The notes beneath the pieces are model-generated. The model had not been told where the DNA came from. It did no database searches and worked only from the letters and a program-made list of their open reading frames with translations. Shown piece after piece: positions 44,536-45,901 of a stretch of DNA of 45,901 bases. Where the stretch lies: assembly GCA_029264955.1 (NCBI GenBank), contig JARHYC010000009.1, positions 1 through 45,901 on the forward strand, written 5' to 3'. Position 1 is the stretch's first letter; each line of letters begins with the position of its first letter. Position numbers and translations under genes: made by a program. Source of the stretch: Faecalibacterium sp. (GTDB taxonomy: Bacteria > Bacillota > Clostridia > Oscillospirales > Ruminococcaceae).

Positions 44536-44667
44536 TTTAGAGGGTGGACAAGGCCCTCGAGGTGCAAACACAAGCAGCTAAGGGTTGCAAGGCAGTAGTG
44601 TGTGTGTTACTCTATAACAAATAAATGATGCCGTATGGTGGCGCAAAACAAGCAGGAGGGGCTAAAT

Positions 44668-45411
44668 ATGTTTCAGGTGGAAAAGGTCACGCAGGAGACC
44701 GTGCAATGGATTAGGGATTGGTTTGATGCAAATGGTGCAGGCTGTAATGCGGTAATCGGTCTTTCTGGAGGGAAGGATTCCACAGTTGTGGCTGGCTTGT
44801 GCGTAGAAGCGCTGGGGCGAGATCGTGTCATTGGCGTATTGATGCCAAACGGTGTCCAGCCGGATATTGACGACTCCAAGGCTGTGGCAGAGTTTTTGCA
44901 GATTCAGCACTATGTGTTCAATATCCATGATGCTTACGAGGCAATGTTGTCTCAGATGACTGTCTGCGGCGTGGAACCGACCAGTCAGACTGTGGTCAAT
45001 TTGCCGCCGCGTCTGCGTATGTCGGCACTGTACGCAATTTCGCAGTCCAAGAATGGCCGTGTTGCCAACACTTGCAATCTGTCTGAGGATTGGGTCGGTT
45101 ACTCCACACGCTATGGCGATGCAGCAGGCGATTTCAGCCCTCTGGGCGGCTTGACTGTGCGTGAAGTGAAAGCGGTGGGTAAGCATTTAGGCCTGCCTGC
45201 CTATCTGGTAGACAAGACACCTTCTGACGGTTTGTGTGGTTCCACAGATGAGGATAAACTGGGCTTTACCTATGCAGCGCTGGATTGTTATATCCGAGAG
45301 GGCATTTGTGAAGATGCAGAGACAAAGGCAAAAATTGACCATTTACATAAACTGAATCAGTTCAAACTGAAGCCGATTCCGGCTTATGTTCCGGCAAAAG
45401 AACTGCTGTAA
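44668..45411 (+). CDS. nadE: Ammonia-dependent NAD(+) synthetase
   Basis: 247 aa amidotransferase-less NAD synthetase: deamido-NAD + ATP + NH3 gives NAD. The PP-loop ATP pyrophosphatase motif is VIGLSGGKDSTVVAG. Later motifs are NTCNLSEDWVGYSTRYGDAAGD (nucleotide binding), FSPLGGLTVREV and KTPSDGLCGSTDEDKLGF. No N-terminal nitrilase-type glutaminase domain is present, so it uses free ammonia or a separate partner. ATG 44668 follows GGAGGGG. It is separated from the upstream operon by a terminator and is the last bacterial gene before the foreign sequence. Confidence 0.95.
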   Translation: MFQVEKVTQETVQWIRDWFDANGAGCNAVIGLSGGKDSTVVAGLCVEALGRDRVIGVLMPNGVQPDIDDSKAVAEFLQIQHYVFNIHDAYEAMLSQMTVCGVEPTSQTVVNLPPRLRMSALYAISQSKNGRVANTCNLSEDWVGYSTRYGDAAGDFSPLGGLTVREVKAVGKHLGLPAYLVDKTPSDGLCGSTDEDKLGFTYAALDCYIREGICEDAETKAKIDHLHKLNQFKLKPIPAYVPAKELL

Positions 45412-45452
45412 AGAAAGTTTGAAGAAAAGATGAAGAAATTTGTTCTTTTCTG

Positions 45453-45480
45453 TTGACAAATATAGAAAAATAAGTATAAT
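45453..45480 (+). promoter_or_regulatory. Consensus promoter at the end of the bacterial sequence
   Basis: Perfect TTGACA (45453-45458), 16-nt spacer, perfect TATAAT (45475-45480). It would drive a gene to the right, but the sequence becomes mammalian a few bases later, so the gene is missing. Confidence 0.7.
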
Positions 45481-45807
45481 TAATCTTGCCGTTATCTTGG
45501 CTGCCCCAGCTCTGCTGCAAGTTCTTCCTTGGTCTGTCTCTCACTGAGTGGAGTGCCAGCCAGGGAGGGGATGGCAAAGTGAGCACTGGCAGCACACCCT
45601 GCCCTTTCTCCGGTACTCACCAGGTCCTTCGCGACAGTCCCACACCTCATGCCGGTCCGCTGCACGGAGGCATTCCGGAATGTGTACGATGCACGCTGCA
45701 TGAGGTTGGAGGAAGGTCCCTGCCCTCAGATGAGAAGGTCGCAGCAACCCAAACACTCAGAGCCATTCACGGTCAGTGCCCTTGAGAGTTTTATTGAAGC
45801 AGCAAGT

Positions 45808-45834
45808 GGGGGTGCCTGGGTGGCTCAGTTGGTT
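45808..45834 (+). mobile_element. Carnivore tRNA-derived SINE (CanSINE) head
   Basis: GTGCCTGGGTGGCTCAGTTG lies within this segment. It matches, from memory, the start of carnivore Lys-tRNA-derived SINEs (GCCTGGGTGGCTCAGTNGGTT), including the B-box-free 5' head. It breaks off after about 27 bases. Confidence 0.8.
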
Positions 45835-45840
45835 TCAGAT

Positions 45841-45901
45841 GCAGTGTTCAACAATTCATCAGTTGCATAGAATACCCAGTGCTCATCACATTGTGTGCCC
45901 T
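45841..45901. mobile_element. Carnivore LINE-1 fragment
   Basis: TTCAACAATTCATCAGTTGC, CCCAGTGCTCATCACA and TGTGCCCT appear in the order seen in an abundant carnivore L1 segment. Recognised from memory. It runs off the window end. Confidence 0.75.

Follow-up and report, generated by a model that had tools for sequence, protein, structure and literature searches.

The 3′ end of contig C29 in the Faecalibacterium sp. draft assembly very probably (at about 95%) consists of genomic DNA from the sampled mammal, joined to the bacterial sequence as an artefact of short-read assembly. The window, i.e. the whole stretch of 45,901 bases analysed here, is this contig in its entirety. Its last base is therefore the contig end, and the foreign tail sits there. 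We place the mammal-like tail at 45485-45901, with an uncertain start between about 45480 and 45500, based on its composition and on homology that nowhere exceeds 24 bases. It is most likely an ordinary contamination artefact.

The last bacterial gene of the contig is an open reading frame of 258 residues on the forward strand (44635-45411), which encodes a protein of the NAD synthase family (Pfam PF02540, NAD_synthase; E 9.9e-52). Upstream of it, the contig encodes a solute-binding protein, an ABC permease and a DUF364 protein. When the short NAD-synthase-family gene was compared with 24 further genomes of the genus, none matched it strongly; eight gave weak matches (E 2.1e-5 to 7.9e-4), located in frames that are about 650-670 residues long. 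Sixteen genomes from other families within the order were also compared, and seven of them match it strongly (E 1.8e-35 or better). The last clearly bacterial feature follows 3′ of this gene. It is a forward-strand sigma-70-type promoter-like site at 45453-45480 (TTGACA, 16 bases, TATAAT), which agrees with the consensus at 12 of 12 positions. One such site was found, and shuffled sequences gave a mean of 0.5 sites of a laxer kind that asks for 9 of 12. The original prediction had described a consensus promoter followed within a few bases by foreign sequence, and this arrangement is borne out, as the sequence changes from about 45485.

Beyond the promoter-like site, the composition is unlike that of the contig body. 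The tail has a GC fraction of 0.56 versus 0.46, and its CpG observed/expected ratio is 0.37 versus a body median of 0.92. On a third-order Markov model, its likelihood falls below that of all 450 body windows. CpG depletion is not uniform, with a CpG-richer stretch inside the tail at about 45600-45750. A change-point score shows a local rise at 45480-45500 and has its best point at 45696, so that the junction base is not fixed. Two of the 450 body windows have a CpG ratio as low or lower, which would also be compatible with an unusually composed tail that comes from a bacterium, a phage or another mobile element and whose relatives lie outside the collections searched. A frame of 99 residues that can be read in the tail points the same way. 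Nevertheless, we consider this origin very improbable, given the searches described below, the apparent repeat-like strings in the tail and the better fit of the tail to a second mammal-like contig end.

The searches for bacterial or viral relatives were almost entirely negative. Searched against 99 other genomes drawn from the genus, family and order, the tail produced a single 24-base match (E 9.9e-4) in one genome, and there was no match among 72,556 plasmid and 50,697 phage records. Hence no close bacterial match, which would speak against the chimeric join put forward in the original prediction, turned up in these collections. Within its own genome, no second copy of the tail was found. 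Ten open reading frames of 25 residues or more are present at 45412-45901, the longest being that of 99 residues. Five of the ten were scanned against Pfam and gave no match at E values up to 1, which argues against a bacterial or mobile element and fits the earlier statement that any protein called here would be false. Of two tail frames searched against the PDB, one had no match and the other had one at E 0.81. Rfam returned four matches in 45400-45901, all below the gathering scores (best E 0.0069), and these were rejected. A terminator-like site at 45816-45828, inside the SINE-like string discussed below, was likewise dismissed, as one site against a shuffle mean of 0.5 is no more than shuffles provide. 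No repeat pairs were detected at the junction, the fold of which has a z-score of -1.21.

Whether such composition is peculiar to this end can be judged from the other contigs of the assembly, which comprises 1.88 Mb in 39 contigs. Both ends of C29 and of the 38 other contigs make 78 ends, and two from one contig read as N, leaving 76 readable ends. Over the outermost 417 bases, the lowest CpG ratios belong to the start of C14 (0.12), the start of C29 (0.33) and the end of C29 (0.37), and the next lowest is 0.61. The start of C29 has an open frame over 414 of these 417 bases, and its terminal 127 bases recur at the end of C23; we therefore take this start as ordinary bacterial sequence. When the last 300 bases are used instead, the end of C29 has a CpG ratio of 0.49 and ranks only sixth lowest among the 76 ends, so the depletion is modest on this measure. 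Four of the 76 ends score lower than the C29 tail on the Markov measure. By eye, we take the end of C36 to be 23S rRNA, the end of C5 to hold tRNA and 5S genes, and the start of C15 to be a structured RNA gene region; the fourth, the start of C38, is a full open frame. By these composition measures, and less strongly by CpG over 300 bases, the foreign composition is confined to the contig end.

The start of C14 provides a second example of the same kind of DNA. The contig begins with 420 bases of mammal-like, CpG-poor, non-coding DNA that includes a run of T, and then enters a gene of the LytR-CpsA-Psr family in mid-gene (Pfam E 1.3e-17). Bases 421-540 of C14 (120 bases) recur without a difference at the start of C11, on the opposite strand. 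Before the join the two contigs differ, with 15 of 60 bases alike. In line with this, a protein search with the C14 protein locates its residues 5-43 on C11 (100% identity), and we read C11 as supplying the N-terminal part of the interrupted gene. The true bacterial continuation of C14 is thus present elsewhere, on C11. For the C29 junction, unlike C14, a bacterial continuation was sought elsewhere in the assembly and only matches of up to 27 bases were obtained. The C29 tail also shares no 25-mer with any other readable contig end. A dinucleotide model was trained on bases 1-420 of C14, with the window body as the contrast. It scores the C29 tail at 5.4, where the best of 900 body windows reaches 0.7, and this again speaks against an unusual bacterial or mobile sequence.

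Mammal-like DNA therefore stands at 2 of the 76 readable contig ends, interiors having been scanned in C29 only. Its presence on at least two contig ends is best explained by chimeras. The chimeric reading of the original prediction gains support from C14, where the same kind of DNA interrupts a gene whose other copy, on C11, is identical over 120 bases and then diverges. A genuine transfer, in which mammalian DNA was integrated into the bacterial chromosome beside the promoter, would account for the fact that bacterial and mammal-like DNA are joined without a gap in the given sequence. However, both mammal-like segments reach the very end of their contigs with no bacterial DNA beyond them, and the gene of C14 is also found on C11, where other DNA precedes the join. 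We regard such a transfer as extremely improbable, and the related idea that a gut bacterium acquired DNA of its mammalian host, including a SINE head, immediately 3′ of a strong promoter as having next to no chance of being correct.

Under the favoured reading, an assembly artefact, the two ends may have arisen in the same way. Twelve pairs of contig ends in the assembly have exactly 127 terminal bases in common, presumably a trace of short-read de Bruijn assembly at k=127. The overlap between C11 and C14 is shorter than this, at 120 bases, which suggests thin coverage at this position and a chimeric extension of C14. We propose that, where bacterial coverage was thin, a chimeric fragment or a spurious overlap could have fused host DNA to the bacterial end. 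The end of C14 would then have been extended through a chimeric fragment, and C29 likely followed the same course. The C29 contig may have ended at the point where it ran into a high-copy repeat of the host, as the repeat-like strings at its end would suggest. Separately, the starts of C6 and C19 each carry direct repeats at multiples of 24 bases; these repeats are common to the two contigs in opposite orientation and perhaps represent one repetitive gene split by assembly.

Composition and the missing homologues point to the mammalian host as the source of the tail, and the repeat-like strings bear on which mammal this may be. The forward-strand stretch 45810-45835 (about 26 bases) appears to us to resemble the head of CanSINE, a tRNA-derived SINE of carnivores. 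It is followed at 45834-45901 by about 60 bases that likewise appear to resemble a carnivore L1, namely its 3′ end in antisense orientation relative to the forward strand. The head motif CCTGGGTGGCTCAG has a single occurrence in the assembly (45815-45828), and taken alone it is weak and non-specific for carnivore DNA. In its 19-base form it was found in five stretches from four IMG/VR contigs. Three genes with this form, one from each of three of these viral contigs, were tested and all match phage terminase families; we read the fourth contig alike. Among 31 genomes of the genus, the motif is present in this one only. Across 394 genomes from the order, the 20-base form with up to one mismatch is present in two and absent from 392. 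The two are this assembly and one other genome, where it lies inside a frame of 675 residues with a glutamine-amidotransferase domain. As an independent check for carnivore DNA, a survey of the 31 genus and 394 order genomes thus gave no instance of the SINE head besides this assembly and one coding gene. A degenerate 34-base pattern for the L1-like string was found in 0 stretches of the viral contigs. A literature text search with the repeat strings produced no paper with a carnivore SINE in its title, and a term search for CanSINE literature yielded, in the excerpts available, only primers and general descriptions.

A carnivore host, as named in the original prediction, fits these strings and is plausible. 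The foreign DNA might instead be mammalian but derive from another source than a carnivore host, for example from food, handling or reagents. The tentative naming of the repeats and the low specificity of the head motif leave room for such a source. We nonetheless consider it unlikely, as the head string is followed by the L1-like string, in that order, and two readers took the pair for carnivore DNA.

If the C29 end is chimeric, no bacterial gene is to be read in the last ~420 bases of the contig. Gene callers can still offer frames there, of up to 99 residues, that could enter protein databases. The finding is also a flag for quality ratings, since two contig ends bear mammal-like DNA although the genome is rated at 99.59% completeness and 0.03% contamination. 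The rating probably missed the tails because gene-based scores are blind to short non-coding sequence. Such tails also hint at the animal that was sampled. A 16S search of the assembly found none, but little can be drawn from this, as it failed in 5 of 14 control genomes as well.

Compared with the repeats themselves, the C29 end is fragmentary. About 26 bases appear to be like the 5′ head of a CanSINE, whereas the SINE body is missing and the sequence runs into the L1-like string. The roughly 60 bases that appear to be like the antisense 3′ end of carnivore LINE-1 are a short fragment cut off by the contig end. Animal DNA is documented as a contaminant of bacterial records, where it gives rise to spurious proteins. 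FCS-GX provides a TRIM action for inter-kingdom chimeras with terminal contamination, which are expected to be rare (PMC10898089). The end of C29 closely resembles the host contamination at draft contig ends that is described for Conterminator and FCS-GX, with foreign eukaryotic DNA flanking a longer contig and with spurious open reading frames. Nothing of note differs, and in the present assembly another contig end serves as an internal check.
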